33,924 nt of DNA, taken from a virus. The notes beneath the pieces were generated by a model that ran no database searches, was not told the origin of the DNA, and saw nothing but the letters and a program-made list of their open reading frames with translations. The stretch is taken from IMG/VR virus record IMGVR_UViG_3300023174_000416, positions 1 through 33,924 of that record. One strand, written 5' to 3'. Numbering within the stretch: position 1 is the stretch's first letter; every line of letters begins with the position of its first letter. Of the stretch, positions 6,236-30,853 are shown piece by piece. The translations under genes and the position numbers were made by a program.

Positions 6236-9200
6236 TTAGACGGTACTTGCTGTTGCAACTTGACCAGATGCAATCTCACCTGTGTTCTTGATTCGAACTG
6301 GAATGTAGATGAATTCAACTGCTTTGACTGGCTCAATAGCAATTTCAACCCACAGTTCGTTTCTATCGATACGAGCTGGTGTATTGTTGCTTTCGTCACA
6401 GACAACCAAGTAGTCATAGACACCACGTTTTGCAACCAAGTCATTGAGTAAGTTTTCACATGCGTTTGAAATCTCATCACGTGTGATTTGATCATTGGGT
6501 TCAAACACAAATGTCTTACCAATTGATTCAAGTCTAGCACGGAGGAATGCAACCAAACGTGCCACGTTGATACGATCCAATGCGCTAGGTGTACCTGCTT
6601 CAGTCTTGTTACCATAGTTGGTAATACCTGTGCCTGGTATGAATGTGATTGGGTTAATCTTGTTTTCATACAACACATCACGTATGCTCTGACGGATAGC
6701 AGTAGAAACAAACTGTCCGGTCTGTGCATCAACATAACCCAAGGCAAACGCATTGTCTACCACACCACGGCGTGTACCAGCTGGTGCCAACCATGGAAAG
6801 CTCACTTCGTCACTGCGTAAAATTGTACGTAGCATCATGTGGCTTGGAGGTTGAACCACGACTGATCCACCAAGATCTGTAGTTTGGCAGCTTGGATAGA
6901 ATGTACCCAAGTAAGCATCTGCTGTTACCAATCCGTCTTCACTGTCTTGACCAACACCAAAGGCATTGGTAGCCCATGCTGTGATAGCATCAGCATTGTC
7001 TGGCATACGCATTGGTGTGTCGCCAATGACAAATGCTGTTTGACTGCGCTCGTTGTTGAGTGCCACCATGTTAGGAATCAACTCAGGATAGTTAGGTGTA
7101 GCGATCAAGTTGAACTGACGCTGTTCTTCACGCAAATCCTGATTTCCATCAATGGATGCCTTCATTGCGGCAACGACCATTTGACGAACTGCTCGACGTC
7201 CCATGTAAGGAGCACCGTTGTCTTGTAGACCACTGGCAGTTACCCAGGCATTTTTCACTGTTGGCAGTGACTCGTCTGGAAAGCTGGTAGAGTTAAAATA
7301 ATCAACCTGGAAGCTCTTGACATTGAAGCCTGAACGGCGTAGATTGAAACCTAGCATGCCGTCTGGATATAGAGTAGGCGTAGGAGCATCCAAATCAAGG
7401 TAGTTAGAAGTCAACAAGCTCTTGATTGTTGGAATTGGATCTGTGATTGGATCTGTGTCTCCGTTAGTTGCCCAACGGAAATCAGCAAACAACACACCGT
7501 TTTCTGTGGTTTGATCTGTGTTGTCAACCAGCACCCATTGCTCTTGTGCATCCACTGTTTGCCAACGCTTGATAACAGGATATACTTCAAGGTCGCTGAC
7601 ATCAATCCATAGATCACCTTCAACTAAATTTGTACCATCACTTTGTAATGTTGGTGCTGTGGTTGAAATGATAGGACCATTTGGATCTGTCAGTGTCAAA
7701 TCATACCCTCTAGCATCGCTAGATACTGTTTTATAACCAGCCCAGGCACCATTGTTGTTGATCATGATGTCAACTTGATCTGTGGCACTGTAATACCATA
7801 AACGACCATCAGCTGGATTTTGGTCTGGAGCATCACTGCTTGCAGTATAAGTCAGCGGGGTCCAGTTGCTGAGTTCAAATATTCCAGTAGCTTCGGGCTC
7901 AGGTGGACGAACGCCAAGGATGGTATCGTTGATACCGGCAGATTCTACAGGATCACCTGTGATATCCTGTAAAATAATCACGCCACCTTGTGTGTGTTGA
8001 ACTTGAATGCTACCATCGCTGTTGACGGCAGCAGTGATAGGAGCCCCACTGGGCACTGCCGCTAAAAATGCTGTTACCCAATCTGCGGCAGTGGTTCCAT
8101 TTATTGTAGCAGTAACCGGTGCGCCAGTTGATGTAGTAGTTTTTGTACTCCACTTAATACTAAATTGATCGCCATTGACTAGAACAGGGTCGGTGATCGT
8201 TCCATTGATAATGGTAGGACCAGTGGCAAAACGTTCAAAGATCTTTAAAGTAAATGTGTCATTACCATAAGTGTCATATTGAGCATAGGTACTACCTACG
8301 GTAATATTGCGTCCGCCACCCGATGGATCCAAGGCTTTGTTGGCAGCGGCATCATATTGATACACTGGACAATTTTGTTGAACAAAAAGTGCTAACGCTG
8401 AATTAAATTTCTTAACCACAAGATTAGTACCTTGGTTAACATTGTTGATCTTGTTCCAGACTGATCCACTTGGATGTGGCTCAGCACTGGTTGATCTCCA
8501 CTGTGGTACTGTGTAGCTTGGTGATGCTTGCAGGGCAGGAGCATAGTATTCGCCCACAGTGATACCAAGAGCTGTTAACACTGGTCCTGTGCCGGCTGAC
8601 ACAGAAATAATTCCGCCGCCTCCGGTTGAACCATCATTGGTAGCGTTGGAATCAGCATAAATTTCAAGTTTGCCGCTGTTGTTAACAGCACTTACTCCTG
8701 AAACAGCTCCGTTGATTTCAGACACCAATCCATCAACGTCATTGTTGGGCGAGACCGGAACTTGTATTTGGACATCATTCAAGAAGAATGTATTGCCAGC
8801 TGTCAATGATGGATTGGTGTTAGTGGCTATTATAGTTGGCCATGAATTTTTCCAATCATCGCTGCCAACCCAAACCCAAGTATTGGCATCTACAGCAGGA
8901 TCGCTATTAGGATTGCCTGGTGTTTTGAAATACACAGGATTGTTTGAATTAGTAGCCACTACACAGTAGTCACCAATGTTGCCAATGGAGTCCAAAGGAA
9001 CTCCGTTGATATCAGTGTCAGCATCAGCAGTAATCACTATTGGAGTTTTTAGTACAAATGTGCTGGTTGTGTAACTCCACTCAAAAATACCCCAAGCAGT
9101 TTCTGCGGTATCTAACCAGTAGGTACCGTTGTCTGGATCGCCTGTTGGACGATTCAATGTAGCTACCAATTCTGACAAGTCAATGTCTGCACGTTGGATA

Positions 9201-9523
9201 TAAGCACGATTGCTGATATTCAACACTGACCACGAAGCCAGTAGTCCGTACTCGTTGAGTTCGTAACCGTTGATCGGTGTACCTGCAGAAGTCTTGTAGA
9301 AGAATGGGTTACCAAATGTGTTAACTAAATCTCGCTGTGAGGAGATTAAATAAACTTTGTTTGCGTTGGCCGCTGTAGTGCCGGCTGCTACGCCTACACC
9401 GCTACCGCTGATCTTGTTCTGCGCTGTTGCGATCAAGATAAACGGTACTGAATTAGTTGGGGCTGGTAAGTAGTTACTTTCGTCAATGATTGTAACTTCT
9501 ACGCCTGGGGAAACTAGTGCCAT
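6236..9523 (-). CDS. 18: Contractile tail sheath protein gp18, expanded
   Basis: 1095 aa against 659 in T4. The N-terminal ~130 residues (ALVSPGVEVTIIDESNY, QRDLVNTFGNPFF, YELNEYGLLASWSVLNISNRAYIQRAD) and the last ~370 residues (VRQMVVAAMKA, RQFNLIATPNYPELIPNM, MMLRTILRSDE, GVVDNAFALGYVD, INPITFIPGTGITNYGNKT) are typical sheath domains; the C-terminal part polymerises and stores contraction energy. Between them (~130-720) lie tandem Trp/Tyr-rich beta modules: TYWLDTAETAWGIFEW, TWVWVGSDDWKNSWP, GRLWYYSATDQVDIMINNNGAW and GDLWIDVSDLEVYP. These are surface-exposed additions. The start is at ATG 9523 with AAAGGAA upstream and a late-promoter box 34 nt away. A strong terminator follows. Confidence 0.93.
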   Translation of the reverse strand: MALVSPGVEVTIIDESNYLPAPTNSVPFILIATAQNKISGSGVGVAAGTTAANANKVYLISSQRDLVNTFGNPFFYKTSAGTPINGYELNEYGLLASWSVLNISNRAYIQRADIDLSELVATLNRPTGDPDNGTYWLDTAETAWGIFEWSYTTSTFVLKTPIVITADADTDINGVPLDSIGNIGDYCVVATNSNNPVYFKTPGNPNSDPAVDANTWVWVGSDDWKNSWPTIIATNTNPSLTAGNTFFLNDVQIQVPVSPNNDVDGLVSEINGAVSGVSAVNNSGKLEIYADSNATNDGSTGGGGIISVSAGTGPVLTALGITVGEYYAPALQASPSYTVPQWRSTSAEPHPSGSVWNKINNVNQGTNLVVKKFNSALALFVQQNCPVYQYDAAANKALDPSGGGRNITVGSTYAQYDTYGNDTFTLKIFERFATGPTIINGTITDPVLVNGDQFSIKWSTKTTTSTGAPVTATINGTTAADWVTAFLAAVPSGAPITAAVNSDGSIQVQHTQGGVIILQDITGDPVESAGINDTILGVRPPEPEATGIFELSNWTPLTYTASSDAPDQNPADGRLWYYSATDQVDIMINNNGAWAGYKTVSSDARGYDLTLTDPNGPIISTTAPTLQSDGTNLVEGDLWIDVSDLEVYPVIKRWQTVDAQEQWVLVDNTDQTTENGVLFADFRWATNGDTDPITDPIPTIKSLLTSNYLDLDAPTPTLYPDGMLGFNLRRSGFNVKSFQVDYFNSTSFPDESLPTVKNAWVTASGLQDNGAPYMGRRAVRQMVVAAMKASIDGNQDLREEQRQFNLIATPNYPELIPNMVALNNERSQTAFVIGDTPMRMPDNADAITAWATNAFGVGQDSEDGLVTADAYLGTFYPSCQTTDLGGSVVVQPPSHMMLRTILRSDEVSFPWLAPAGTRRGVVDNAFALGYVDAQTGQFVSTAIRQSIRDVLYENKINPITFIPGTGITNYGNKTEAGTPSALDRINVARLVAFLRARLESIGKTFVFEPNDQITRDEISNACENLLNDLVAKRGVYDYLVVCDESNNTPARIDRNELWVEIAIEPVKAVEFIYIPVRIKNTGEIASGQVATASTV

Positions 9524-16201: not shown

Positions 16202-16623
16202 ACGCAGTTGGTGTTTGGTTCTATTCAGTTACCACCAATCGGTATCTCTATCTGTTAAGAAACGATGATCGGCATCCCGGAACTTGGGGACTGCCAGGAG
16301 GCAAATGTCATCGTGATGAAACGCTGATGGAAACTATCCGTAGAGAGTGCATTGAAGAACTGGGATTTTGGCCTGAAGAAATAAAGCTGGTACCCATAGA
16401 AAAATTTACCAGCACAGACGGAAATTTTTCTTATCACACATTTTTTTGCAGTGTAGCCACGGAGTTTACACCCATACTTAATGATGAGCATCACGGTTGG
16501 GCCTGGATTGATTCAACCACATGGCCCAAACCATTGCATCCAGGACTGTGGTCAACTGTGAATTTTGAAGAAGTAAAACAAAAAATGATTACTGTACAAC
16601 AACAGTATCAAACATCACAGTGA
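16183..16623 (+). CDS. Nudix hydrolase
   Basis: 146 aa at most. Nudix enzymes cleave nucleoside diphosphates linked to another group, with Mg2+. The full Nudix box is present: G40-x5-E46-x7-R54-E55-x2-E58-E59-x-G61-F62. Ahead of it are RYLYLLRNDDRHPGTWGLPGG (substrate strand), as in MutT-like proteins. The start is uncertain: GTG at 16183 overlaps the gp15 end by 19 nt and has GAAGGA only 2 nt away, whereas TTG at 16198 (MNAVGVWFYS) has GGAG at 16185-16188 9 nt upstream and seems better. Substrate cannot be told; in phages related enzymes act on oxidised nucleotides, ADP-ribose, (p)ppGpp or RNA caps. It is in the gp14-gp15 operon and its end overlaps the convergent 224-aa gene by 16 bp. Confidence 0.88.
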   Translation: MEFGTLNAVGVWFYSVTTNRYLYLLRNDDRHPGTWGLPGGKCHRDETLMETIRRECIEELGFWPEEIKLVPIEKFTSTDGNFSYHTFFCSVATEFTPILNDEHHGWAWIDSTTWPKPLHPGLWSTVNFEEVKQKMITVQQQYQTSQ

Positions 16624-17282
16624 AGAACAAACTGTTGGTAAGTTAAAACTTCCGCATTTCTAAATGCACGCCACTCGTCATGTGGTGCGGCATGGTCAGT
16701 AACAAAATAAAACTTGGTATTGGGATAAGCTTCAAGTACCTGTTTAATATCAATTATATGTTTGTGATCAATGTGATGTTCGCTGGTTGTACCATCTACA
16801 CCTAACAAGAAAACTTCGTTGTGCCCATCAAACGCGGCAAGATACGCGGCAGCGGCTGGTGGCGCTAGTCTAAGACAATAAGGAATAAGATAAAACTCTC
16901 CTGGCATTTTCAAACAGTTAGTAGTCAAAGTATACACCACTGACTTTTCACTATAATTGGATGCAATAATTTCATTGAGAGTTGGAATATCATATTCAAC
17001 GCAAAAATCTAAATGCATTTTTTTCCAGGTGCCTTCACAGCCATAGGTCTGTAATTTTTTCTGTCCTAACAACCCGCCACCGTGATTGGCCACAGCGGTT
17101 ACCACATCTTCTCTTAGGCTATGCCCAGCACCGATCACAACTGCACGTCCAGAAATGTGTTGGTTGGCTATGGGGTTTTCAATGTATTCTTTTTCTGTGA
17201 TCTTTTGACCATCTCTGTAGATAATCTTCGTGATGACAAATTCGCCAGCGTAGTCTGCTCTATATCGTTCTTTGTTGATCAT
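16608..17282 (-). CDS. Putative sugar/nucleotide-type enzyme of the phage 'VxGxGxSxR' family (DUF115-like?)
   Basis: 224 aa. After ~40 N-terminal residues comes a Rossmann-like strand-loop, SGRAVVIGAGHSLREDVV, then a YGCEGTWKKMHLDFCVEYDIP segment giving a 'known or expected position' strand, then PPAAAAYLAAFDGHNEVFLLGVDGT, then a final YPNTKFYFVTDHAAPHDEWRAF and NAEVLTYQQF. The same order (VLGNGRSR, ...GLACLDGYTRIYLLGFDLGT, YPTRQFIRVQGPESAP, KFMEISEF) is seen in the 196-aa protein at 30263-30853, so they are paralogues. The layout recalls DUF115/MAF_flag10-type and glycosyltransferase-like enzymes, but I cannot prove the class. It overlaps the 414-aa fibre gene by 4 nt, suggesting joint translation and a role in fibre modification. 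Confidence 0.55.
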   Translation of the reverse strand: MINKERYRADYAGEFVITKIIYRDGQKITEKEYIENPIANQHISGRAVVIGAGHSLREDVVTAVANHGGGLLGQKKLQTYGCEGTWKKMHLDFCVEYDIPTLNEIIASNYSEKSVVYTLTTNCLKMPGEFYLIPYCLRLAPPAAAAYLAAFDGHNEVFLLGVDGTTSEHHIDHKHIIDIKQVLEAYPNTKFYFVTDHAAPHDEWRAFRNAEVLTYQQFVLHCDV

Positions 17283-18523
17283 AATCTTCCTACCATGATT
17301 TCAATAGTTCCTTCTTTGTCGTCTGAGTGGTTTTCCAAGGCTTTGCCTATCACGCATCCTGGAGCATAGTTTTCCATCTTGCAGGCTACTCCTGGAACGT
17401 CACTGCTTGCCAATAAGTCACCTTTACTAATTTTACCAATCACTCGGCAAGGAACTCGTCCTAGCAACGCTACATTGACTGCATTTTCAACTTCCAGCCC
17501 ACGATTCATTAACACACCCGGATTTTCAGATACAGTACCAGCAATAGATGTCTGGCATGCGTCAGTACTTTGAGTGACTTCTTTGACTCCACCGATGACC
17601 AATACTGTGCCCACTGGATATTCAGCATCTGCTTCGTAACGTTCTGCAACGTCAGCATATTGTGCCGAAGTGGCTTTGGCAAACACAGTGTTAAAGTATG
17701 TTGATGATGTTCCAATATTGCCAACTCCGTTGGCTTGACCGTTTCGTATATCAGCGCCTATTACTAAGTTTCCACCAAACCAACTGTTTCCGCCGTTGAC
17801 AAACAGTGCATAAGAGTTAGTAATGGTCATATTGGTGCCAGCAACAGGAGCACCTGCCACATACAGTGTGCCTGCATTGGTTGTAGTTACCGATCCATTG
17901 GTGGCAGCCAATGTTGGCTGTGCTATGGCATTGATATGATTGGTTGCGGCTGTGCCAGCTGCCGGAGTGCCTGAATCTGTATATGTTGCCGCATTGATTC
18001 GTAGACCAATACCATTGGTAGTCCAGCTTGAAGCTGTTTCGTTACCTCCTATGGTCACAGCGGCTGTGGTGGGTGCTGTACCAAGTCCAACTTGGCCAGT
18101 AACTGCTAGATTAGCGGATACATTGGCCTCAGTGGCTGTAAATGTTGTATTGGTAACACCACCTACGTTGGCGCGAATGTTGCCACCTGAGGCAATCACA
18201 GTCATTGATGATGTGCCATTGGCTATGCTAGTGGCATCAACTGTGGCCCAGGCTACACCTGAACCTGTACTCTGTAAAAACTGTCCAGTGGAGCCTGTGC
18301 CACCATTGGCGGTCAATGTACCTGTAAGCACAGCACTGCTTAATGTTTTATTTGTCAGTGTCTGAGTAGCAGTGGTTCCAACTCCGCTGAATCCGCCTAG
18401 TGTGGCTCCATCGTGGACAACTACCACCTTGTTAGTGGTATCAACTGTGATTTCACCCAACGCACCTGCAAAGCTGGCTGTTTGTGAGCTGGATCCTCGA
18501 CGGTATTGTATCTGGGTTGACAT
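17279..18523 (-). CDS. Tail fibre protein with shared C-terminal domain (fibre A, 414 aa)
   Basis: 414 aa, Ala/Gly/Thr/Asn-rich and beta-structured. N-terminus TQIQYRRGSSSQTASFAGALGEITVDTTNKVVVVHDGAT is the usual baseplate-attachment-type start of phage fibres. Central region has TSIANGTSSMTVIASGGNIRANVGG repeats. Residues 261-414 form the C-terminal domain shared with the 1203- and 1418-aa fibres: NGQANGVGNIG..YFNTVFAKATSAQYADVAE...GTVLVIGG..EVT...AGTVSENPGVLMN...VALLGRVPCRV...KGDLLASS...GCVIGKALE...IEIMVG. This domain resembles in layout the intramolecular chaperone/cleavage (peptidase G2-like) ends of fibres, but I cannot confirm it. Start ATG 18523 has AGGA 7 nt upstream and a late box. 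Confidence 0.8.
   Translation of the reverse strand: MSTQIQYRRGSSSQTASFAGALGEITVDTTNKVVVVHDGATLGGFSGVGTTATQTLTNKTLSSAVLTGTLTANGGTGSTGQFLQSTGSGVAWATVDATSIANGTSSMTVIASGGNIRANVGGVTNTTFTATEANVSANLAVTGQVGLGTAPTTAAVTIGGNETASSWTTNGIGLRINAATYTDSGTPAAGTAATNHINAIAQPTLAATNGSVTTTNAGTLYVAGAPVAGTNMTITNSYALFVNGGNSWFGGNLVIGADIRNGQANGVGNIGTSSTYFNTVFAKATSAQYADVAERYEADAEYPVGTVLVIGGVKEVTQSTDACQTSIAGTVSENPGVLMNRGLEVENAVNVALLGRVPCRVIGKISKGDLLASSDVPGVACKMENYAPGCVIGKALENHSDDKEGTIEIMVGRL
17282..17743 (-). repeat. Shared fibre C-terminal domain, copy in fibre A
   Basis: Codons 261-414 of the 414-aa fibre. Paralogous to 20931-21386 and 24612-25070; the three differ in the variable middle but keep AKATSAQYADLAE, GRVP and KGDLL. 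Confidence 0.85.
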
Positions 18524-18539
18524 GTATTATTCCTGTATC

Positions 18540-18547
18540 ATATTTAG
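18540..18547 (-). promoter_or_regulatory. Late-promoter box CTAAATAT upstream of fibre A
   Basis: Seven-of-eight late-core match; TAAATA is 17 nt before the ATG at 18523. It lies right at the 3' end of the 766-aa fibre gene upstream. Confidence 0.6.
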
Positions 18548-20848
18548 TTAGTTTATAACCGATCTATCGCTGGTGCGGCGCCAGTTAGTGCCATCACTAA
18601 ATGCTGTTATAGCACCACCAGTGGCGTTGCTAACATAGATAAATTGGGCTGGTATTGTTGCGCTGGGCAATGTTGACACTGTAAAGCTCGGTAGCACCAG
18701 CTGAGTCGGGTAAAAAACACCTGAAGTTACAATCTCTCCGAGATCTGATTGGCTAGTTACTGCTTCTGTGACCAATCCAAGATCGTCTGAAAGTGTAACT
18801 ACTTCTGTCACTGTACCAAAATCAGCACCATCAACAAAAATTTCGCTGCCTGCACCAGAAGTTGCTATGGTTAATGTATCTGTTGTTGGGTCAGCAACTA
18901 TAGTGATACCAGAACCAGCATTAAACGTAAATGTATCATTGATTGAATCTGCAACAATGGTGTTACCGCTGGCCACAGCAAATGATCTAAACGTTTCAAT
19001 TCCTGATAAATTACGTCCATTGCCTAGAATGTTACCACCAAACACATTGCCTGTGGCATACAAATTTCCGGTAACATTACCACCAGCAGTTGAGAACACT
19101 GCTATATTGGGTGTGCCGCCAATGGTGATTGCTAAGTTACCGCCAGAAGTACCAATATTGGCCTCACTGGTTCCATTGAAGACTTTGGTTGTGTTATATC
19201 CACTGGCAAATGTGATGTTAGCCAGTAGGTAGTTACCTGTGATATTGCCAGCAGTAGTTAGGTTGCCGCCTGTGACATTGCCTGTGGCCGTGACTTGTCC
19301 AGCAGTGCCCAAATTACCTACATTGGCGTTGCCGGTAGCAGAAATTGTGTTTGCTTCAAGACCACCAACTATGAGATTACCATAACTGTTTACAGTGACT
19401 ACCTCTCCTGAAACACTGACATTGGTTGCGGCAATGAGTTTGCCAGCTGAGTTGTCGTAGCCAATAAAGGCCGACTGTTCTGATGTGGTGTAGTACCAAA
19501 GTTGTTCACCGCGATCTTTGCCGTCATTGGTTGTGAGTGGAGTGTTGTTTGGTCCGCGACCTAGTCCAATGATTGGGTCAACAACGTTCAAATCTGTGAC
19601 GTTGACCGAAATAACATTGCCACTTACAGTAAGATTGCCTGCTATAGTAGCATTACCACTGGTAGTCAATGTACCAGTGGATACTGTACCTGTTGTAATT
19701 AAGTTACCACCTGTGACGTTACCTGTCACTCCCAGTGTGCCTGTGATGTTAGCCCCTGCTGTGCTGAATACGGCTACGTTGGAAACTCCACCAATGGTGA
19801 TGTTGGCGTTGCCCCCAGAAGTACCAATATTGGCTTCACTGGTGCCGTTGAAGAGTCGGGTGGTATTATACCCACTGGCAAATGTAATGTTGGCCAGCAA
19901 ATAATTACCTGTTATGTTACCAGATGCTGTTACCTGGCCACCTGTGACCAGGTTGCCACCTGTGACGTTGCCTGTGGCAACTATCAGTCCTGCTGTACCA
20001 AGATTACCCACATTGGCATTACCAGTCACACTTAATGTAGTTCCAATAGAACCAAGTCCTGCTGTGATTAAATTTCCACCAGTAATGTTGCCTGTGGCTG
20101 TGATTGTGGATGCACTAATATCCGGAGTTGTACCTGACAGTACAGTCTGCGCACCTTGTGGGTTAGTAAGAATTAGCGATGTAGCATTGGCTGAGATTTG
20201 AGCATTGCCAAGATATATTGTGGAGTTTGATAGCCAAATATCTCGCCAACGATTGGTAGTGTTGCCCAGATCATAAGTGACGTTGGCGCCAGGATTAACG
20301 TTCCCCCAAAAAGTTGGATTATCTCTAACAGCAAATGTTATAGTGTCTGTGGCAGCATTGCCTGTTATAATAATATTGTTGCCAGTGGAAAAAGTAACTG
20401 TGCCTGTGGCAGAATTGGCAACTACAGAAGTACCGTTGGCTGAAATAGTTCCAAATGCATTACCTGTGTTGATTTCAAATGTAAGTGCTGTGGTACCTAT
20501 GATTATAGGGTCATTGGTTGTGAGTTTCCAACTTGTATCAGCATAGGTAGAACCTTCGGTGACCATGACAATGGTGCCCGAATCAAGCTCGCCGGTTGCA
20601 TTGGTGTCTGTGGATCTAATCCAGGTTCCGTTGCTTCCGGTGCCTAGTACACTTACTATATAGATACCGTTCTGACTGCCTGTGCTTTGCCCTGACACCA
20701 GAATGCGATCATTCAAGCTCAAGGTAACTCCGTCAACCACTGTAGGAGCACCGCCCGAAAGAGTAATATTGCTAGTGGTTATCGCCCGCACTGACTGTTT
20801 ATAGTCAATGTCGTATATCTGCGCGGCACGAGGTCTAGTTAATCCCAT
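18548..20848 (-). CDS. Tail fibre protein (fibre B, 766 aa)
   Basis: 766 aa. N-terminal module QSVRAITTSNITLSGGAPTVVDGVTLSLNDRILVSGQSTGSQNGIYIV...WIRSTDTNATGELDSGTIVMVTEG is a common start of phage fibres. Then come GN-rich repeats of the form TGNVTGGNLVTGG. At about residues 420-490 is the shared module NVTDLNVVDPIIGLGRGPNNTPLTTNDGKDRGEQLWYYTTSEQSAFIGYDNSAGKLIAATNV. The C-terminus TLPSATIPAQFIYVSNATGGAITAFSDGTNWRRTSDR is a known fibre-end motif and differs from the three other large fibres, so B lacks the ~153-aa end domain. A late-promoter box and AAGGT precede the ATG. It probably forms beta-helical trimers at the tail and may carry receptor binding. Confidence 0.8.
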   Translation of the reverse strand: MGLTRPRAAQIYDIDYKQSVRAITTSNITLSGGAPTVVDGVTLSLNDRILVSGQSTGSQNGIYIVSVLGTGSNGTWIRSTDTNATGELDSGTIVMVTEGSTYADTSWKLTTNDPIIIGTTALTFEINTGNAFGTISANGTSVVANSATGTVTFSTGNNIIITGNAATDTITFAVRDNPTFWGNVNPGANVTYDLGNTTNRWRDIWLSNSTIYLGNAQISANATSLILTNPQGAQTVLSGTTPDISASTITATGNITGGNLITAGLGSIGTTLSVTGNANVGNLGTAGLIVATGNVTGGNLVTGGQVTASGNITGNYLLANITFASGYNTTRLFNGTSEANIGTSGGNANITIGGVSNVAVFSTAGANITGTLGVTGNVTGGNLITTGTVSTGTLTTSGNATIAGNLTVSGNVISVNVTDLNVVDPIIGLGRGPNNTPLTTNDGKDRGEQLWYYTTSEQSAFIGYDNSAGKLIAATNVSVSGEVVTVNSYGNLIVGGLEANTISATGNANVGNLGTAGQVTATGNVTGGNLTTAGNITGNYLLANITFASGYNTTKVFNGTSEANIGTSGGNLAITIGGTPNIAVFSTAGGNVTGNLYATGNVFGGNILGNGRNLSGIETFRSFAVASGNTIVADSINDTFTFNAGSGITIVADPTTDTLTIATSGAGSEIFVDGADFGTVTEVVTLSDDLGLVTEAVTSQSDLGEIVTSGVFYPTQLVLPSFTVSTLPSATIPAQFIYVSNATGGAITAFSDGTNWRRTSDRSVIN

Positions 20849-20869
20849 TTTTTACCTTAATCTACTGAA

Positions 20870-20877
20870 TATTTATG
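20870..20877 (-). promoter_or_regulatory. Late-promoter box CATAAATA upstream of fibre B
   Basis: TAAATA is 21 nt before the ATG at 20848 and directly follows the fibre C terminator. Confidence 0.65.
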
Positions 20878-20882
20878 GAAAA

Positions 20883-20908
20883 AAATAGGGCCACCGAGAG
20901 CCCTATTT
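20883..20908 (-). terminator. Rho-independent terminator after fibre C
   Basis: A 9-bp stem (20883-20891 with 20900-20908, core ATAGGGC/GCCCTAT), 8-nt loop and a run of U on the minus strand lie 20 nt after the fibre C stop. It is immediately followed by the promoter of fibre B. Confidence 0.8.
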
Positions 20909-20927
20909 CTTGATGCAGACGCACCGA

Positions 20928-23900
20928 TTAAACTCGTCCTACAACGACCTCAATCACTCCGTCTTGACCGTCAAAGTCTGCTAGAGCTTTACCAATTATG
21001 GTACCTGCACGAGCTTCGTTGTTGGCGCGACCTCGACCGTCACCAGCGGAAACAATTAAATCACCCTTGCGTATTTGTCCTGTAACTTTGGTAGGAACAC
21101 GACCTTGTAGTGCCACGGCAGCCACGTGTGATCCAGTTTGTCCCGAGTTCATCAAATAACTAGGGTTAGTAGAAACTACGCCAGCTACACGAGTACAGTC
21201 TTCAATGTCGCATACTGTGACTTCTTTGGCTCCACCAAAACACAGCACTGTACCTGGTTCATATGTGGCATCTGCTTCGTAGTTTTCTGCCAAGTCAGCG
21301 TATTGTGCTGATGTGGCTTTGGCAAATACAGTATTAAAATATCCTGTGGCACTACCAATGTTACCCACCCCGTTGGCTTGACCGTTGAGCAGGTCTTTGT
21401 CAGCAATGATCACTCCAGTACCATTGGGACTCAGTTTGATGTTGCCATTACTACTGGTTTGGATGTGTAGTGCGCCCGTGTCAATGATGTTGCCACTAAG
21501 TGTCACATCTCCTGTGATCACTGTACCAGTTGTGGTAAACACAGCTATGTTGCTGACACCGCCCACTGTGATATTGGCGTTGCCGTTTTGTGTTTGAATG
21601 TCTAATGATGTAGTGCCGTTTTGGACTCTGTCACCCAGGATGTTACCACTGAGACTGGCGTTGCCTGTAACAGTAAGGTTACCCGTGATAGTTACTCCTG
21701 AGCTAATAACATCTACCACATTGGCTGTGCCACCTGCACTGATTGTTACATTAGAATTGTTGAATGTACGCACATTGGCTGTGCCATTGGCAATACTTGT
21801 AGTATCAACGTTGTTGGAACTCAATGTACCTGGAGTGGTACCATCTGGTCCAAAGAAACTCAATGTGTTGCCTGAAGTATTCTTGAGAACAATGTTACCC
21901 AGTGTAATTGAGTTACCAGTAACAAATAAGTCTTTCCAACGTGCTGTTGAGCTACCTAAATTATAAAGGCCGTTTGCTGTGGGCAATACGTTACCAGTTA
22001 TAGCAACGTAAGTGGTTGAATCTGAAACTTCAATTACTGCTGATCCATTGGCGTTGGTAATACCTTTAACGGATGTAGTTGTAACAATTTCACGAACTTC
22101 AATCAAGTCACCTAGAGCAGGTGCTTCAGTAAATGTCAGTGTTGTACCTGCCACAGCATAAGCTGTCACTGGAACCTGTAAAATACCGTTGATAGAAACT
22201 ATACAGCTGGCTGTGGTATAACCAGAGTTGATTGTAAACGCTACTGTTGTACCGTCACCGTTGAATGTTTGACTTTGTACCACTGTAAATGTAGTACCAG
22301 TTGACTGCCACTGTGTGCCATCATAGAATTCCAAACTGGATGTGGTGCTGTTGTAGCGTACCATACCTGCAACACCCACTGATGGACGTTGTGCTGAGTT
22401 ACCCACAGGAGCAAGGATAGAATTTGTAAAGTTAAATGCTACGCCAGCATTCACTGTTTGTGTTGAGCTACCAAAACTGGCAGTGTGTGTACCTGCATCA
22501 ACATAGAACACGTTGGGTGTAACATCGCCATCTACTGCAAAGTCAACGTCAGCATCGCTGGCATTCACTGTGATTCTACCACTGCGACTGTCAATGTTGG
22601 TTACATACAAGCTACCGTTGACAATGTCAAAACCTTGTGTGCTGGCCACAGTGCGCACATTGGCTGAACCAGTGTTACCTACCCAAGTCAATACGTTGCC
22701 GTTGGTTGAACCCAGCAACAAATTACCAATGCCAGAACTGCCTGGTCCTGCTTCGTCGCTGGCCACTACATAGACATAACCAGTGTTGTTGGTGGCATGT
22801 TCTGTGAAGAACTGATCATGGATACCAGTGTGAGTGTTGCTGGTGATACCCATGTTGATAAAGTATGTGCTATCGTCGCCGTTGTTGGCTGTGGCCACAT
22901 AGTCTGTGGATGCCGCATTGCCACCATTGATGTTTTCAAAGTTGACTTGACTGTATGAGTTGGCATTACCTGCAAACTGGATGACAACGTTGGATCCCAG
23001 TGTGGTAAATCCAGGTACACCACCAAATATTGCGGCGTTACCTGTCACAGCATTACCGTAGAATATACCAGATGTATTGGCAATAACGTTGGATGTTGCT
23101 GTGAGCGTGCCAAGTATGTCCACGTTGCCTGTGAAGTAACCTGTGGTGGCAGCTAGTCTATTGGTAACATTGACATTGCCTGCATTTACGTTACCAGTGG
23201 TTGTGATAATTCCGGCGCCAGCTGATAAATTACCACCTGTGATATTACCTGTGGCATTGACTGTTTGGCTAAAGACGTTGCCTGCTTGGAATGTGCCGTA
23301 CTGCAATACGTTAATAACGTTGTTGCCGCTAAAATTCACGCTGGTGGCAGCTACTAAGTTACCAGTGCTGTTGTCCCAAAATACCGAAGCATTACCTGTA
23401 CTGCCAGACTTGTAGTATTCCATGTAGATACCACGGTCCATACCATCATCTGTGGTAAGCGGAGCACCGTTGGGACCAGTACCCATGATAATCACAGGAT
23501 CTTCTACACGCAAATCATCAATGTTGATGTAAGTTAAGTTGCCTTGAACAATTAAGTTACCGCCAATCAGCGCATTGCCAGTTGTGGTCAATGTTGCTCC
23601 AGAAATTGCGGCGTTGGAAATTAAGTTACCACCAGTGATGTTACCAGTGGCATTGATTGTGGTTGCCGCTGATATTGATGCATTGGAAACCAAGTTACCA
23701 CCAGTGATATTACCAGTGGCATTGACTGTGGTGGCTGCTGATATGCTGGCATTGCTTACAAGATTACCACCTGTGATGTTACCTGTGGCATTGATTAGAC
23801 CAGCTGTACCAATGTTGCCCAAGGTAGCATTGCCTGTTACACTCAGTGTAGTTGCCGCAGAAATTGCGGCGTTGGAAATTAAGTTACCACCTGAAATGTT

Positions 23901-24539
23901 ACCTGTGGCATTGATTAGACCAGCTGTGCTGATATTGCCCAGCGTGGCGTTGCCTGTTACACTCAGTGTAGTTGCGGCGCTGATAGCCGCATTAGAAATT
24001 AAGTTACCACCCGATATGTTACCGGTAGCATTGATCTGTCCTGAGGCGGAAATATTTGCTAACGAAATATTTCCTGTGAGCGAAGTTGTGCCTGTAACTG
24101 TCAAGTTGCCTGTGACAGCGGCATTTAATGTTCTAAAGCTGGCATAGCTGGCAATAGTTACAGTGGTATTGGTTGTGGTGTCATTGGTATAAACAGTGAC
24201 GAACTCCCCTAACGATTCGTCCCAAACAAACGCAATATTTTGGCTTGTGCCACGTTCACCAATAAAACCAATGTCCAAACTTGGCGAACCTGTTTGATTG
24301 GCTGCCAAATACAGTATGGGATCTTCAATAACAACACTGACTGTGTCAATGGTTGTGGTTTGACCGTTGACTGTTAAGTTGCCCGTGACAGTAAGATCTG
24401 ATCCATAAACCAGGCTGTTGGCAATTTTGCCAGACGTAATTGAGTAGTCTTGCAGTTTTGCAGCCGCGTTAATACCTAAGTAAAGATTACCGGCTGATGA
24501 GTCAGTAACCTGGTTATTTTTAATCCGTGTAATTGGCAT
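20928..24539 (-). CDS. Large tail fibre protein with shared C-terminal domain (fibre C, 1203 aa)
   Basis: 1203 aa. N-terminus MPITRIKNNQVTDSSAGNLYLGINAAAKLQDYSITSGKIANSLVYGSDLTVTGNL and DIGFIGERGTSQNIAFVWDES (residues ~1-120) are typical of aquatic phage fibres. Next are tandem GNISGGNL repeats (~150-340), the shared DPVIIMGTGPNGAPLTTDDGMDRG module (~345-420), a module with STDYVATANNGDDSTYFINMGITSNTH (~540-690) that also occurs in fibre D, a GDGTTVAFTINSGYTT..IVSINGILQVPVTAYAVAG module (~770-860), and SFFGPDGTTPGTLSSNNVDT. The end domain (1052-1203) is shared with fibres A and D. GGAG lies 11 nt before the ATG, with a late box further up. Likely homotrimeric receptor-binding fibre. Confidence 0.8.
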   Translation of the reverse strand: MPITRIKNNQVTDSSAGNLYLGINAAAKLQDYSITSGKIANSLVYGSDLTVTGNLTVNGQTTTIDTVSVVIEDPILYLAANQTGSPSLDIGFIGERGTSQNIAFVWDESLGEFVTVYTNDTTTNTTVTIASYASFRTLNAAVTGNLTVTGTTSLTGNISLANISASGQINATGNISGGNLISNAAISAATTLSVTGNATLGNISTAGLINATGNISGGNLISNAAISAATTLSVTGNATLGNIGTAGLINATGNITGGNLVSNASISAATTVNATGNITGGNLVSNASISAATTINATGNITGGNLISNAAISGATLTTTGNALIGGNLIVQGNLTYINIDDLRVEDPVIIMGTGPNGAPLTTDDGMDRGIYMEYYKSGSTGNASVFWDNSTGNLVAATSVNFSGNNVINVLQYGTFQAGNVFSQTVNATGNITGGNLSAGAGIITTTGNVNAGNVNVTNRLAATTGYFTGNVDILGTLTATSNVIANTSGIFYGNAVTGNAAIFGGVPGFTTLGSNVVIQFAGNANSYSQVNFENINGGNAASTDYVATANNGDDSTYFINMGITSNTHTGIHDQFFTEHATNNTGYVYVVASDEAGPGSSGIGNLLLGSTNGNVLTWVGNTGSANVRTVASTQGFDIVNGSLYVTNIDSRSGRITVNASDADVDFAVDGDVTPNVFYVDAGTHTASFGSSTQTVNAGVAFNFTNSILAPVGNSAQRPSVGVAGMVRYNSTTSSLEFYDGTQWQSTGTTFTVVQSQTFNGDGTTVAFTINSGYTTASCIVSINGILQVPVTAYAVAGTTLTFTEAPALGDLIEVREIVTTTSVKGITNANGSAVIEVSDSTTYVAITGNVLPTANGLYNLGSSTARWKDLFVTGNSITLGNIVLKNTSGNTLSFFGPDGTTPGTLSSNNVDTTSIANGTANVRTFNNSNVTISAGGTANVVDVISSGVTITGNLTVTGNASLSGNILGDRVQNGTTSLDIQTQNGNANITVGGVSNIAVFTTTGTVITGDVTLSGNIIDTGALHIQTSSNGNIKLSPNGTGVIIADKDLLNGQANGVGNIGSATGYFNTVFAKATSAQYADLAENYEADATYEPGTVLCFGGAKEVTVCDIEDCTRVAGVVSTNPSYLMNSGQTGSHVAAVALQGRVPTKVTGQIRKGDLIVSAGDGRGRANNEARAGTIIGKALADFDGQDGVIEVVVGRV
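20931..21386 (-). repeat. Shared fibre C-terminal domain, copy in fibre C
   Basis: Codons 1052-1203 of fibre C: NGQANGVGNIGSATGYFNTVFAKATSAQYADLAE...VAGVVSTNPSYLMN...GRVPTKVTG..RKGDLIVS...IGKALADF. Paralogue of the ends of fibres A and D. Confidence 0.85.
23610..24040 (-). repeat. In-frame coding repeat array in fibre C (69-bp and 120-bp units)
   Basis: The TTACC of the GGN codons recurs at 23626, 23695, 23764, 23884 and 24004: two steps of 69 bp and two of 120 bp, all multiples of 3. The protein unit is ATGNITGGNLVSNASISAATT (21-23 aa), or the same plus LSVTGNATLGNISTAGL (40 aa). Confidence 0.85.
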
Positions 24540-24565
24540 AAATCATGTCGCTCCGCTTTATGATT

Positions 24566-24573
24566 ATATTTAG
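24566..24573 (-). promoter_or_regulatory. Late-promoter box CTAAATAT upstream of fibre C
   Basis: TAAATA is 27 nt before the ATG at 24539. It lies in the 69-bp gap after the fibre D stop, in which I see no convincing terminator. Confidence 0.6.
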
Positions 24574-24608
24574 CGGCAAGTTAAAAAATAGTTTCGTGTG
24601 TGGTTTTT

Positions 24609-27600
24609 TTACCAGGCACCCACTACAACCATGATTTTATGGCTGCCTGCAGGGGCCGATTCCAGTGCCTTGCCCACTATAACACCCGGTAGCCAGTCTG
24701 TGTTTTTAAGTTTTTCAGCGTGTCCTGCTGTGGAACTTGTGGTCAGCACATCACCTTTGTTCACTGGGCCCACAACCCAGCAAGGTACTCGCCCTGCCAT
24801 GGCAATGGGCACAGAATTGGCTTGCTCAGCATTCATTAGATAGGCAGGATCTGTGGATATAATACCTGCTAGGCGCTGATCTGCATATTGCGTTGATTGT
24901 GTAATTTCGTTGTCGCCAGCAAATACCATTACAGTGCCTGCGTCGTGGACTTGATCGCACTCAAACTGTTCTGCTAAGTCTGCGTACTGTGCTGATGTGG
25001 CCTTGGCAAACATAGTGTTAAAATACGTACTTGATGAGCCAATATTGCCCACTCCGTTGGCTTGACCATTGCGTAAATCAGATGTGATTACCACAACCCC
25101 TGTACCATTGGGTGCTAGGGTGATGTTTCCATTGCTGGTAGTACTGATGCCTAATTGACCGCCTGAATCAACAATGTTACCACTGAGGTTAATGTTGCCA
25201 CTGACATTGGCATTGCTACTGACGTTGATATTGCCGCCAACGTTGGCATTTGTTGATGTAACAATAAGAACATTAGCAGTTCCTCCAGCACTGATTGTTA
25301 CCGATCCAGAGCTCAGTGTCTGAACATTGGATGTTCCGTTGGATATTTGTGTGGTGTCAACGTTGTTGGAACTCAGTGTGCCTGGAGTAGTGCCATCGGG
25401 TCCAAAAAATGACAGGGTATTTCCTGAAGTATTTTTGAGTATAATATTGCCCAGCGTGATGGAGTTTCCGCTAAAGTATCCATCTTTCCAACGCAAAGTT
25501 GGACTGCCAAGATTGTAAGTAACATTGGCAGTGGGCAACAGATTGCCAGTGATGTTGACCTGGGATGCATTGGCTTGTACTCCAACGATTGAATTGCCTG
25601 TAGTATTAGTGATTTCTGTTACTGTTTGTATCTGTGTCAAGAAACGAACTTCAACAGCATCTGACACTTGCGGTGCTTCAGAAAATGTGATTACGTTACC
25701 GACAACTCCATATGATACATCTGGAATTTGGCTCACACCGTTAATGCTGACTAAAATGCCACCAGATGTGGTGTCCTCATTGAGGGTAAATGCTACTTGA
25801 GATCCATCGCCGTTGATAACCTGGCTGGTCAATATAGCTAAATCTTGTCCAACTACATCCCACTGCGTGCCGTCCCACACTTCTAACACCAGTGTGGTGC
25901 TGTTAAAACGCACAGCACCTTGATCTGGTGATGCAGGTCTTTGTGCTGTGTTGCCCACAGGCATGGTCAGTGCAGTGGTTGAACCGATCTGTGTCACTCC
26001 GGTTGGTCCCGGAGTTACTAATATGTTGCCTGATGTTGCTGTGATAGAAAGATTGGCATTGCTGGTAATGGTTGTACCATCAATGCGAATATTGTCAATG
26101 TTTGCTGAGCCTATCAGTACAAGATTGGCACCATCAAAGGTTAAATTGGCTGTGTCAACTAGATAATCATTGGCACCAACATAGACTATCCTGTTGGTAG
26201 TTAAACTCGTAACTTGAGCGTTGGCACCAGTAACCAATGCGTTGCTGACAATGTTTCCACCAGTGATGTTACCTGTTGCTGAAATTGTAGTAGCGGCACT
26301 GATTGAAGCATTGGAAACCAAGTTACCACCAGTGATGTTACCAGTGGCATTGATTGTGGTTGCCGCTGATATTGATGCATTGGATACCAAGTTACCACCT
26401 GTGACATTGCCTGTGGCTGAAATTTGTCCTGTCGTTGATATATTACCAAAACTAACATTTCCAACTATGGTGGCCGATTCGCCGTAGATATTTCCAGCTT
26501 GGAAAGTTCCAAACTGATTGATTGTGACTATTTCATTGTTTAAGGTAACATTGCTGGCAATGATCATGTTGCCAGATGAGTTATCCCATCCAACAAATGC
26601 ATTACCTTGAGCAGTGGTATAATAGGTTAATAGTGTGCCGCGATCCTTGCCATCATTGGTGATCAATGCATTGCCGTTGGCTCCGCCACCAAGTTGTATA
26701 ATAGGATCTTCAACACGTAAGTCGTCAATGTTGATGTAGGTTATGTTGCCTTGGACTGTGAGATTTCCAGCAACTAGAGCATCACCGCTTACACTCAGAG
26801 TAGTTCCTGTGATCCTTGCATTGCTTACAAGATTACCACCTGTGACATTTCCAGTGGCTGATACAGTTGTGGCCGCTGATATTGATGCATTGGAAACCAA
26901 GTTACCACCAGTGATGTTACCAGTGGCATTGACTGTGGTGGCTGCACTGATTGAGGCATTGGAAACTAAGTTACCACCGGTGACGTTACCAGTGGCTGAT
27001 ACAGTTGTGGCAGCTGATATTGACGCATTGCTTACAAGATTACCACCAGTGATGTTACCAGTGGCATTGATTGTGGTTGCCGCTGATATTGATGCATTGG
27101 AAACCAAGTTACCACCTGTGATATTTCCAGTGGCGCTGAGTTGGCCCGAAGTTGATATGTTACCAAAACTAACATTGCCAGTTATTAACGCAGACTGTGC
27201 ATAGATATTTCCAACCTGCCAGGTTCCAAACTGATTGACAGTGACTATCTCGTTGGCTATAGACACATCCACTGCGGCTATAAGATTTCCAGCTGAATTA
27301 TCGTAACCCATGAAGGCAGATTTTTCTGCACCATTGTAATACCAAAGTTGCTCACCGCGATCTTTACCATCATTGCTAACCAATGGAGTGTTGTTGGCTC
27401 CTCGGCCCATGGATATAATTGGATCTTCTACAGCCAGGGTTGTAACGTTTTCGTAAACTAAATCGCCATTGATTGTTAAGTTGCCATCGATAATAGCGTT
27501 GCCACCTGCATAGATATCTTTAGTAACATTGACATAGTTTCCGCTGACATTACCATTGGCTATGACATTGTTTCCGGTGATGTTGCCAACTGCATTGATC

Positions 27601-28865
27601 AAAGCGGCACTGTAGAGATTACCAACAAACACATCAGAGCTGACATTGGCTGTGCCTGTCAACACCAATGCAGTTCCATTAAAAGTAAGATTGTTTGTTG
27701 TAGCTACATTTTTATTGGAATCTGTATAAAGTACACGGTTAGCTGTAGTGCCGGTTATGATTAGATTACCAACCGATGTATTGCCTGTGATATTAGCAGT
27801 GGTTCCAAAGATACCAGCATTGGATATTAAATTGCCGCCTGTGATGTTGCCACCAACCGTGAGTACGTTTCCAATACTAATATTGTTGGAGGTAGTATTT
27901 CCCAACACCGTGGCATTGTTTACAGTGATATTTCCAGTGATTTGAACATTACCTATCACGGCACCACTGGATATAATGTTGCCGCCTGTGATGTTGCCTG
28001 TAACGTTTAAAACACCTGTAATATTTGATCCAGCAGTTGTAAGTTCTTGTATTACATTGGCCTGTGCAGTGTTTCCAACAAACATCTTGATACGACCATC
28101 TGTGGAACCCAGTATTAAGTTACCCGGCCCAGTGTTTCCAAGATTGTTGCCTACACCGACCACATATAGATAAGCATCATTGGCACTGGAAGTATCGCCA
28201 AAAAACTCTGGATCAACATGATTATTTCCAGCAATACCCATATTTAAAAAGTAGGTATTGTCATCTCCATTGTTGGCAGTGGCAATGTAGTCTGTGGACG
28301 AAAGATTACCTGCATTGATGTTTTGAAAATTCAATTGTGCATAGCTATTGACATTGCCAGCAAACTGCATAATCACATTAGAACCCAGTGGAGTAAATCC
28401 AGGAACACCGGCAAAAGCGGCGTTGATCCCTGTAATAGTATTGCCGTAGAATATACCCGAGTTGGCGTAAACTACACCAACGGTGGCATTTAAATTGCCC
28501 AATACATCAACGTTGCCAGTAAAGTAACCTGTAGAAGAGTAGACCCTTGATACTACATTGACATTGCCAGCATCAACGTTGCCAGACACATCAACAGTGG
28601 TTCCATCATAGGTAAATCCAGAGTTAGTGAGAGCCAGTTGACTAGCACCGGCATAAAATACACCATTGGCAGTGGCAGATGTAATACGCACATTTGAAGC
28701 GTTGGCTACACCTATGACATTGAACTCATCCTGGGGTGTGCCTGTGAGGATACCAACGCGATTGTTGGTCACGTCAAAATAGGCTAGATTACCTTGTATT
28801 GATAGATTAGCGCCACGTTGCAGGTTGTCCTGCAGTATGTTGCCAGAAACTCGTTGAATCGCCAT
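24609..28865 (-). CDS. Very large tail fibre protein with shared C-terminal domain (fibre D, 1418 aa)
   Basis: 1418 aa, the largest protein here. N-terminus MAIQRVSGNILQDNLQRGANLSIQGNLAYFDVTNNRVGI. The STDYIATANNGDDNTYFLNMGIAGNNH module is at ~150-290. Two or three copies of the DPIIxxGxGxN...NDGKDRG module follow (~485-570, ~700-790), separated by arrays of 23-aa GNITGGNLVSNASISAATT units. Then come an AQRPASPDQGAVRFNSTTLVLEVWDGTQW plus GDGSQVAFTLNEDTTSGGILVSINGVSQIPDVSYGVVG module (~1000-1100), SFFGPDGTTPGTLSSNNVDT, and the end domain (1266-1418) shared with fibres A and C. AAAGGG lies 6 nt before the ATG and a late box just upstream. Probably the long distal fibre or a second receptor-binding fibre. 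Confidence 0.8.
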   Translation of the reverse strand: MAIQRVSGNILQDNLQRGANLSIQGNLAYFDVTNNRVGILTGTPQDEFNVIGVANASNVRITSATANGVFYAGASQLALTNSGFTYDGTTVDVSGNVDAGNVNVVSRVYSSTGYFTGNVDVLGNLNATVGVVYANSGIFYGNTITGINAAFAGVPGFTPLGSNVIMQFAGNVNSYAQLNFQNINAGNLSSTDYIATANNGDDNTYFLNMGIAGNNHVDPEFFGDTSSANDAYLYVVGVGNNLGNTGPGNLILGSTDGRIKMFVGNTAQANVIQELTTAGSNITGVLNVTGNITGGNIISSGAVIGNVQITGNITVNNATVLGNTTSNNISIGNVLTVGGNITGGNLISNAGIFGTTANITGNTSVGNLIITGTTANRVLYTDSNKNVATTNNLTFNGTALVLTGTANVSSDVFVGNLYSAALINAVGNITGNNVIANGNVSGNYVNVTKDIYAGGNAIIDGNLTINGDLVYENVTTLAVEDPIISMGRGANNTPLVSNDGKDRGEQLWYYNGAEKSAFMGYDNSAGNLIAAVDVSIANEIVTVNQFGTWQVGNIYAQSALITGNVSFGNISTSGQLSATGNITGGNLVSNASISAATTINATGNITGGNLVSNASISAATTVSATGNVTGGNLVSNASISAATTVNATGNITGGNLVSNASISAATTVSATGNVTGGNLVSNARITGTTLSVSGDALVAGNLTVQGNITYINIDDLRVEDPIIQLGGGANGNALITNDGKDRGTLLTYYTTAQGNAFVGWDNSSGNMIIASNVTLNNEIVTINQFGTFQAGNIYGESATIVGNVSFGNISTTGQISATGNVTGGNLVSNASISAATTINATGNITGGNLVSNASISAATTISATGNITGGNIVSNALVTGANAQVTSLTTNRIVYVGANDYLVDTANLTFDGANLVLIGSANIDNIRIDGTTITSNANLSITATSGNILVTPGPTGVTQIGSTTALTMPVGNTAQRPASPDQGAVRFNSTTLVLEVWDGTQWDVVGQDLAILTSQVINGDGSQVAFTLNEDTTSGGILVSINGVSQIPDVSYGVVGNVITFSEAPQVSDAVEVRFLTQIQTVTEITNTTGNSIVGVQANASQVNITGNLLPTANVTYNLGSPTLRWKDGYFSGNSITLGNIILKNTSGNTLSFFGPDGTTPGTLSSNNVDTTQISNGTSNVQTLSSGSVTISAGGTANVLIVTSTNANVGGNINVSSNANVSGNINLSGNIVDSGGQLGISTTSNGNITLAPNGTGVVVITSDLRNGQANGVGNIGSSSTYFNTMFAKATSAQYADLAEQFECDQVHDAGTVMVFAGDNEITQSTQYADQRLAGIISTDPAYLMNAEQANSVPIAMAGRVPCWVVGPVNKGDVLTTSSTAGHAEKLKNTDWLPGVIVGKALESAPAGSHKIMVVVGAW
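24612..25070 (-). repeat. Shared fibre C-terminal domain, copy in fibre D
   Basis: Codons 1266-1418 of fibre D: NGQANGVGNIGSSSTYFNTMFAKATSAQYADLAE...LAGIISTDPAYLMN...GRVPCWVVG..NKGDVLTTS...VGKALE. Paralogue of the ends of fibres A and C. Confidence 0.85.
26242..26415 (-). repeat. In-frame 69-bp repeat array in fibre D (proximal to the end domain)
   Basis: Three units with anchor positions 26254, 26323 and 26392, exactly 69 bp apart; protein unit ATGNITGGNLVSNASISAATT. 26323-26384 is identical over 62 bp to 27040-27101 and to 23626-23687. Confidence 0.85.
26821..27135 (-). repeat. In-frame 69-bp repeat array in fibre D (central)
   Basis: Five units with anchors at 26833, 26902, 26971, 27040 and 27109, exactly 69 bp apart. 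Protein units alternate ATGNVTGGNL and ATGNITGGNL, each followed by VSNASISAATT or a variant of it. 27040-27116 is identical to 23626-23702 of fibre C. Confidence 0.85.
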
Positions 28866-29639: not shown

Positions 29640-30266
29640 TTAGAATATTATGCTAAACACGATGGCTTTTGACTTGCTGATCAACTCATCCTGATTGCTG
29701 TTGTTATTAAAATACAGACCAGTTCCACCACTGCCTGGAATGTTTGCTACCATGGTAGCAGTGTTGGCCACAGTTGCTGGAGGTATGCTTTTGTATCCCA
29801 ATGCTGTGGTCCCATTTATTGTCAAACGGCTGGTAGCATAATCAAACTTGAATGCGGCATTGGCTCCAAGTACACCACCATCGTTGTATTGTATTTCTGT
29901 GTTGGCACCTGCGGCTGTGATAGCACCCGATATTATGGGCTCCCAGGTGCCTGTGATACCCGACGATGATGTGCTGGAGCTGACTTCCCAGCTACCCGAA
30001 TTGTCATTGTATCTGATACCGGCATAATCAGAGCTGGTTTTGTGTGTGAGCAAACCAGAATTGGACTGGTAGGTTCCTGTGTTTGACGCATTGACTAGAA
30101 TAAACGGATCCGTGACATTGAGTTCTGAAACGTTGATGTAGGTCAAATTACCTTGCACTGTCAAGTTACCTGTGACTGTTGTGTCCGTGTCAATATAGAC
30201 CTTCTGCTCAGGAGGGTAAACGGTTTGTATATAAAAATCGCCGTCGATGCGTTTGTAAGTGGTCAT
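29640..30266 (-). CDS. Fibre-type virion protein with shared central module (208 aa)
   Basis: 208 aa. After an N-terminal MTTYKRIDGDFYIQTVYPPEQKVYIDTDT comes TVTGNLTVQGNLTYINVSELNVTDPFILVNASN, the start of the module that fibres B, C and D carry as GNLTVQGNLTYINIDDLRVEDPII. A GAGANTEIQYNDGGVLGANAAF-type segment follows (AAGANTEIQYNDGG), and the end GSGGTGLYFNNNSNQDELISKSKAIVFSIIF is a familiar terminal motif of short virion proteins of these phages. The ATG overlaps the stop of the 196-aa gene by 4 nt, but it also has its own late box and AAAAGG, so it can be expressed without that gene. It probably connects fibres to the baseplate. Confidence 0.7.
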   Translation of the reverse strand: MTTYKRIDGDFYIQTVYPPEQKVYIDTDTTVTGNLTVQGNLTYINVSELNVTDPFILVNASNTGTYQSNSGLLTHKTSSDYAGIRYNDNSGSWEVSSSTSSSGITGTWEPIISGAITAAGANTEIQYNDGGVLGANAAFKFDYATSRLTINGTTALGYKSIPPATVANTATMVANIPGSGGTGLYFNNNSNQDELISKSKAIVFSIIF

Positions 30267-30853
30267 AGCAAGCCTTTTGATGTATTTAGCAGGTCTTTGA
30301 ATTCACTGATTTCCATAAATTTCATATTTGGTGCTTGCTGTGCCAGATCGTAGACCGGTGCGCTCTCAGGGCCTTGAACTCTTATAAATTGTCTAGTAGG
30401 ATACTTGTTACAAATCTGCGCAATCTGACGTATCCAGTTGCCTGAAAAAGTAGGGGGTGCAGAGCTTTTTTTATAAAAATCTGTGTCAGCATAGAGATTG
30501 TTGAATTTGCCGTCGGCTGTGCCAAGGTCGAATCCCAGCAGGTAGATACGGGTGTAGCCGTCCAAACAGGCCAATCCCACTGCGTTGGGCCCTGAACTAA
30601 ACCCCATGTATTCTTTGCACAATCGATGGGCTCCAGAATTGGGCAAAGGTCTGCGGGTATAAAATTTATTTTTTTGAGCATATCCAGATTCTTGTATCAC
30701 TGTGGCTATGGGCAAGTCAGTTGCTACCAAAACATCCGGAGTAAACTCTCGATAGATGGCATTGCAGGCGTAGACAGGGCCGTGCTGTTTTAGCGCCAAG
30801 AGATCAACTGCTTGTCGGCTACGTCCGTTGCCCAATACAAATGCTGTGGTCAT
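30263..30853 (-). CDS. Putative sugar/nucleotide-type enzyme of the phage 'VLGNGRSR' family
   Basis: 196 aa. N-terminus TTAFVLGNGRSRQAVDLLALKQHGPVYACNAIYREFTPDVLVATD has a glycine loop and an A-C-N-A-I-Y/T-D pattern as in phage proteins that I recall with the same FVLGNGxSR start. Then GFSSGPNAVGLACLDGYTRIYLLGFDLGT and NLYADTDFYKK follow. It is a shorter paralogue of the 224-aa protein at 16608-17282. The class may be DUF115-like or glycosyltransferase-like; no substrate can be named. The only usable ribosome binding site (GAGGA, 6 nt before the ATG) is inside the 3' arm of the terminator of the gene upstream, so expression should be low or conditional. It overlaps the following fibre gene by 4 nt. 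Confidence 0.6.
   Translation of the reverse strand: MTTAFVLGNGRSRQAVDLLALKQHGPVYACNAIYREFTPDVLVATDLPIATVIQESGYAQKNKFYTRRPLPNSGAHRLCKEYMGFSSGPNAVGLACLDGYTRIYLLGFDLGTADGKFNNLYADTDFYKKSSAPPTFSGNWIRQIAQICNKYPTRQFIRVQGPESAPVYDLAQQAPNMKFMEISEFKDLLNTSKGLL
30283..30290 (-). promoter_or_regulatory. Late-promoter box upstream of the 208-aa fibre gene
   Basis: CTAAATAC: TAAATA is 16 nt before the ATG at 30266 and lies inside the last codons of the 196-aa gene, so fibre expression does not need read-through from that gene. Confidence 0.6.

Follow-up and report, generated by a model that had tools for sequence, protein, structure and literature searches.

A C-terminal domain shared by three fibres of a viral genome fragment is probably a compact G2-like intramolecular chaperone

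Why would a virus end three of its fibre proteins with one and the same domain? The question is raised by a 33.9 kb viral record of a large phage of freshwater type (IMG/VR IMGVR_UViG_3300023174_000416, positions 1 to 33,924; this whole stretch of 33,924 nucleotides is referred to here as the window), which carries genes for tail sheath, tail tube, head closure and major head protein, together with four consecutive open reading frames (ORFs) on the minus strand encoding fibres in the order D, C, B, A. Fibres A, C and D share a C-terminal domain, and we propose that this domain is probably a compact intramolecular chaperone resembling Peptidase_G2, which would trimerise the fibre and then be cut off before a conserved aspartate.

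The shared domain comprises residues 261-414 of A (17282-17743, minus strand), 1052-1203 of C (20931-21386, minus strand) and 1266-1418 of D (24612-25070, minus strand), giving a length of 152-154 amino acids, and each copy runs to the stop codon. In A it is made up of a linker (NGQANGVGNIG...AKATSAQYA) and a putative chaperone core. Pairwise identity of the three copies is about 49-58% over the whole domain, and BLASTP comparisons of the domain-bearing fibres returned E=5e-49 (A-D) and E=2e-45 (A-C), indicating that the likeness is not due to chance. Conservation is uneven within the domain, the first ~34 residues (the linker and an ADxAE motif) being nearly identical and the other ~120 about 35-48% identical. 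An earlier sequence-only reading of this DNA had noted the common ending of the three fibres at 17282, 20931 and 24612 and its absence from B, both of which are borne out by the ORFs, BLASTP and the pairwise identities, and the likeness extends across the whole domain rather than being confined to the linker.

Searching IMG/VR with the domain of fibre C produced 321 confirmed stretches, from which 80 loci (numbered with the prefix L below) were kept; together with the window these provide 99 distinct full copies, and 65 sequences make up the alignment used for profile comparisons (A1). The motif AD[LVIMF]AE is present in 99/99 distinct copies, all of which are C-terminal and extend up to the stop codon, and the invariant residues of A1 include A30, D31, A33, E34, D39 and G45. 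Two apparent internal copies (L061 and L063) proved to be spurious and not second domains. Related records of 343-353 kb contain 3 to 4 copies each, in open frames of 406-3166 amino acids. Further afield, PA5oct gp359 (annotated as detected by electrospray ionization tandem mass spectrometry, ESI-MS/MS), Sinorhizobium phage Phosso, Agrobacterium phage Atu_ph07 and Campylobacter phage CP220 have C-terminal domains that are 35-44% identical and retain ADLAE, but these are carried on other fibre bodies and, with few exceptions, a single copy was found in each phage. A scan of bacterial genomes yielded 3 loci only, all in metagenome-assembled genomes and possibly on phage contigs.

Profile comparisons connect the domain, as a distant homologue, to Peptidase_G2 (PF11962), the family of the phi29 tail protein gp12. 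This profile is matched by 44 of the 65 homologues, many of them weakly (best E 7.7e-8). Alignment of eight classical G2 domains to A1 with hhalign gave E 3.7e-5 under default settings, and 3.2e-7 over 136 columns once the alignment setting was changed, far above the reversed and eight column-shuffled controls (E 0.03-0.77), and the output aligns DFAEYFE of phi29 with ADLAENY of the shared domain. The D-x-A-E junction motif is also present in all eight classical G2 proteins used; a hand-composed G2-like query served solely to find real G2 proteins, and an invented bridging consensus that matched phi29 and Dpo31 is not counted as evidence. When the PDB was searched with the C sequence alone, hepatocyte growth factor also came up (E 1.4e-5); it was missing from the profile search and was taken as a chance match.

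The C and D copies were modelled with AlphaFold2, reaching predicted local distance difference test (pLDDT) scores of 88.1 and 87.9, respectively, and values >90 over most of residues 31-150 of the C copy. According to the structure comparison VIA, the best match for both models is phi29 gp12 (3suc; Z 14.9 for C and 14.1 for D), and the C-terminal fragment of gp12 (3gqh) superposes on C over 109 aligned residues (Z 14.1, root-mean-square deviation (rmsd) 2.3 Å) and on D over 107 (Z 14.3, rmsd 2.1 Å). In each model the motif Asp, at position 31, lies opposite gp12 Asp692, with which the liberated auto-chaperone begins; gp12* of the mature virion has been modelled to residue 691 (PMC6542822). 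Foldseek gave its top ranks to proteins of the capsid cement and to the base of the phi29 head fibre, which VIA puts below gp12 (HFTV1 capsid cement, Z 12.6-12.9; phi29 gp8.5, Z 9.2-9.6), and a DUF2190 protein was among the matches of a BFVD search. On the strength of these models, fibre auto-chaperones and capsid cement proteins appear to have a fold in common, although the cement/DUF2190-like proteins and gp8.5 are stand-alone capsid proteins or head-fibre bases, whereas the shared domain is C-terminal on fibres of 400-1400 amino acids. Besides the fold, gp12 and the shared domain have in common the D-x-A-E junction and the C-terminal position, which in gp12 is on a trimeric tail protein.

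A second close system is Dpo31, a marine tailspike of Cobetia phage Carin1. The chains of a truncated Dpo31 construct end at residue 663 and the isolated D4 trimer was traced from Asp664; the mature protein lacks D4, and most fragments without D4 were insoluble (PMC13317679). The Dpo31 junction, TTYA|DYAEYFE, has an Ala preceding the Asp as in A, C and D, and by its D-Y-A-E motif Asp664 is the equivalent of the motif Asp in the shared domain. D4 (PDB 28nb) differs from the shared domain in possessing a long arm and in being part of a depolymerase spike, with one match found in Carin1.

By analogy with these two proteins, three chains would meet through the shared domain, which would nucleate in-register folding of the slender upstream fibre. 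Once the stem had formed, each chain would be cut before the invariant Asp of A-D-[L/V]-A-E, which would set free the mature fibre together with a trimer of ~122-residue fragments. We infer trimerisation, chaperone activity, cleavage and release from phi29 gp12 and Dpo31. In A, the predicted cut at Ala290|Asp291, placed by the motif and the homologous position, would free Asp291-Leu414 (17282..17653, minus strand); in C, a cut at Ala1081|Asp1082 would free Asp1082-Val1203 (20931..21296, minus strand), a segment modelled mostly at pLDDT >90; and in D, a cut at Ala1295|Asp1296 would free Asp1296-Trp1418 (24612..24980, minus strand). We suggest that it is because the module is released that it could serve three fibres and be swapped among phages. 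The sequence-only reading had offered a peptidase G2-like chaperone as one candidate, and this is the candidate favoured by the PF11962 matches, the profile-profile alignment and the structural match to gp12.

How the domain has evolved relative to the fibre bodies bears on its function. Residues 705-1201 of C (20937..22427, minus strand) are homologous to residues 963-1416 of D (24618..25979, minus strand), with 49.5% identity over 501 columns, a second block is 57% identical over 195, and repetitive modules of B are found also in C and D. The earlier description of the bodies as unrelated is therefore correct for A versus C and D, but not for C and D, which have about 500 C-terminal residues in common. 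In a phylogenetic tree each window copy clusters with copies of other phages rather than with its two counterparts in the window, indicating that the domains of A, C and D are old paralogues; recent homogenisation of the three was rejected on this basis. In locus L003, fibres of the D, C, B and A types follow one another as in the window. The core of the C orthologues is 85-93% identical and surpasses almost all segments of the body, and body identity varies from 26-31% in L007 (core 86%) to 40-57% in L002 and 59-81% in L003 (both over residues 151-1051), while some orthologues have kept a conserved N-terminus (84-88%). Fibre A has a C-like pattern in L001 and L002 (body 57-67%, core 79-81% identical to the window) and the opposite one in L003 and L004, where residues 1-200 are 84-98% identical and the C-terminal core only 56-58%; these identities point to a modular exchange of the domain in fibre A. 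At the DNA level, four-fold sites in the domain's first 34 residues (17642-17743, 21285-21386 and 24969-25070) differ in 17/45 comparisons versus 61/88 in the rest of the domain (Fisher p 0.0007, the pairs not being independent), perhaps reflecting a recombination anchor or codon constraint.

Several observations weigh against a self-cleaving G2-like chaperone. The A, C and D copies of the window do not match PF11962 at E<=1 in a direct scan, and the matches that were individually inspected (E 3.4e-5 to 0.016) fall below the 25-bit cut-off and span only about positions 33-100 of the 228 in the profile. The part following the predicted cut has a median length of 122 residues compared to 156-177 in classical G2 domains including gp12, because the stretch from the GVxS strand to the following GR/GQ strand is ~22 rather than 68-79 residues; the long arm of ~50 residues is missing. 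Going by their sequences, the copies in the window are not Pfam-defined members of Peptidase_G2 and are accurately described as a divergent short branch. The C and D models were built from one sequence set in different order and are not fully independent, and since capsid cement proteins have the same fold, the fold alone is no proof of self-cleavage. Lastly, the exchange of the fibre A domain next to a conserved N-terminal part is what a receptor-binding tip would likewise predict.

The cement-like fold and the compact, arm-less form of the domain would both suit a permanent trimerisation cap, in which the domain registers the chains, is never cut and stays at the fibre tip. We regard such a cap as unlikely, given that no examined copy departs from the Asp and Glu of the junction motif and that the motif Asp is in register with the sites at which phi29 gp12 and Dpo31 are processed. 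A receptor-binding tip common to the three fibres, which the sequence-only reading had also entertained, is in keeping with the terminal position and is kept alive by the fibre A comparisons (L003/L004 and L001/L002), in which swapping of the domain is uncoupled from the body. It is nonetheless improbable, as the conservation of the fibre C core above that of the body runs counter to it, for example in L007, three diverged versions within a single phage would amount to three variants of one binding site, and the closest structural counterpart is a chaperone destined for removal. The remaining alternative, an S74-type intramolecular chaperone as in K1F endosialidase and T5 pb1, would have the same role and terminal position, and S74 has been reported in one group of jumbo phages (PMC7824862). 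This family, which the sequence-only reading had named alongside PF11962, is absent from the 20 Pfam families matched by the 65 members, and the junction is Ala-Asp-x-Ala-Glu, not a catalytic Ser with downstream Lys as in the S74-type mechanism of T5 (PMC4690869), making an S74 chaperone very improbable here.

Returning to the G2-like chaperone, the auto-chaperone type, which in phi29 brings about trimerisation of the chains and then cleaves itself off, is already known, but among open-licence papers we found no account of this abbreviated form or of its use on more than one kind of jumbo-phage fibre. More tentatively, the domain could represent an arm-less, cement-like branch of G2 auto-chaperones, present in multiple copies in jumbo phages as an interchangeable fibre folding-and-release cassette and forming a structural link between cement proteins and tail-fibre auto-chaperones. 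Should the chaperone reading be correct, these fibres would lack their last ~122 residues on the virion, and host-range studies should seek the tip upstream of ADxAE. A "hypothetical" domain that is widespread in large environmental phages would also gain a testable function, and the domain might serve as a portable tag to aid the folding of fibre proteins and might connect capsid cement proteins with fibre auto-chaperones in evolution.

Fibre A (17279..18523, minus strand; 414 amino acids) has an Mtd_N-type N-terminal domain (residues 5-41 match PF18454, E 3.9e-13) and a short body ahead of the shared domain. Fibre B (18548..20848, minus strand; 766 amino acids), the one without the domain, ends in FSDGTNWRRTSDRSVIN. 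A comparison of B-type fibres from the window and loci L001-L005, L015, L025, L026, L056, L061, L064, L078 and L079 revealed the same kind of N-terminus in the relatives (LTRPRAxQI) but several unrelated C-termini (FSDGTNWRR..DR, DLGVLT, FGF, FGGF and the G2-like domain, the last of these in L061), so that the B slot looks, from sequence, like a site of tip exchange. Fibres C (20928..24539, minus strand) and D (24609..28865, minus strand) are encoded by ORFs of 1203 and 1418 amino acids, respectively, and residues 756-837 of C match the N-terminal domain of T7 tail fibre (PF03906, E 7.6e-6) despite lying mid-protein rather than at the N-terminus. The ORF overlapping the end of fibre A (16608-17282, minus strand) has no family matches. 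The tail sheath protein (6236-9523, minus strand) is unusually long at 1095 amino acids and is closest to those of the jumbo phages Phosso and PA5oct, and an ORF near the fibres (30263-30853, minus strand) has a weak likeness to a phage alpha-2,3-sialyltransferase family (phrog_4603, E 4e-7).

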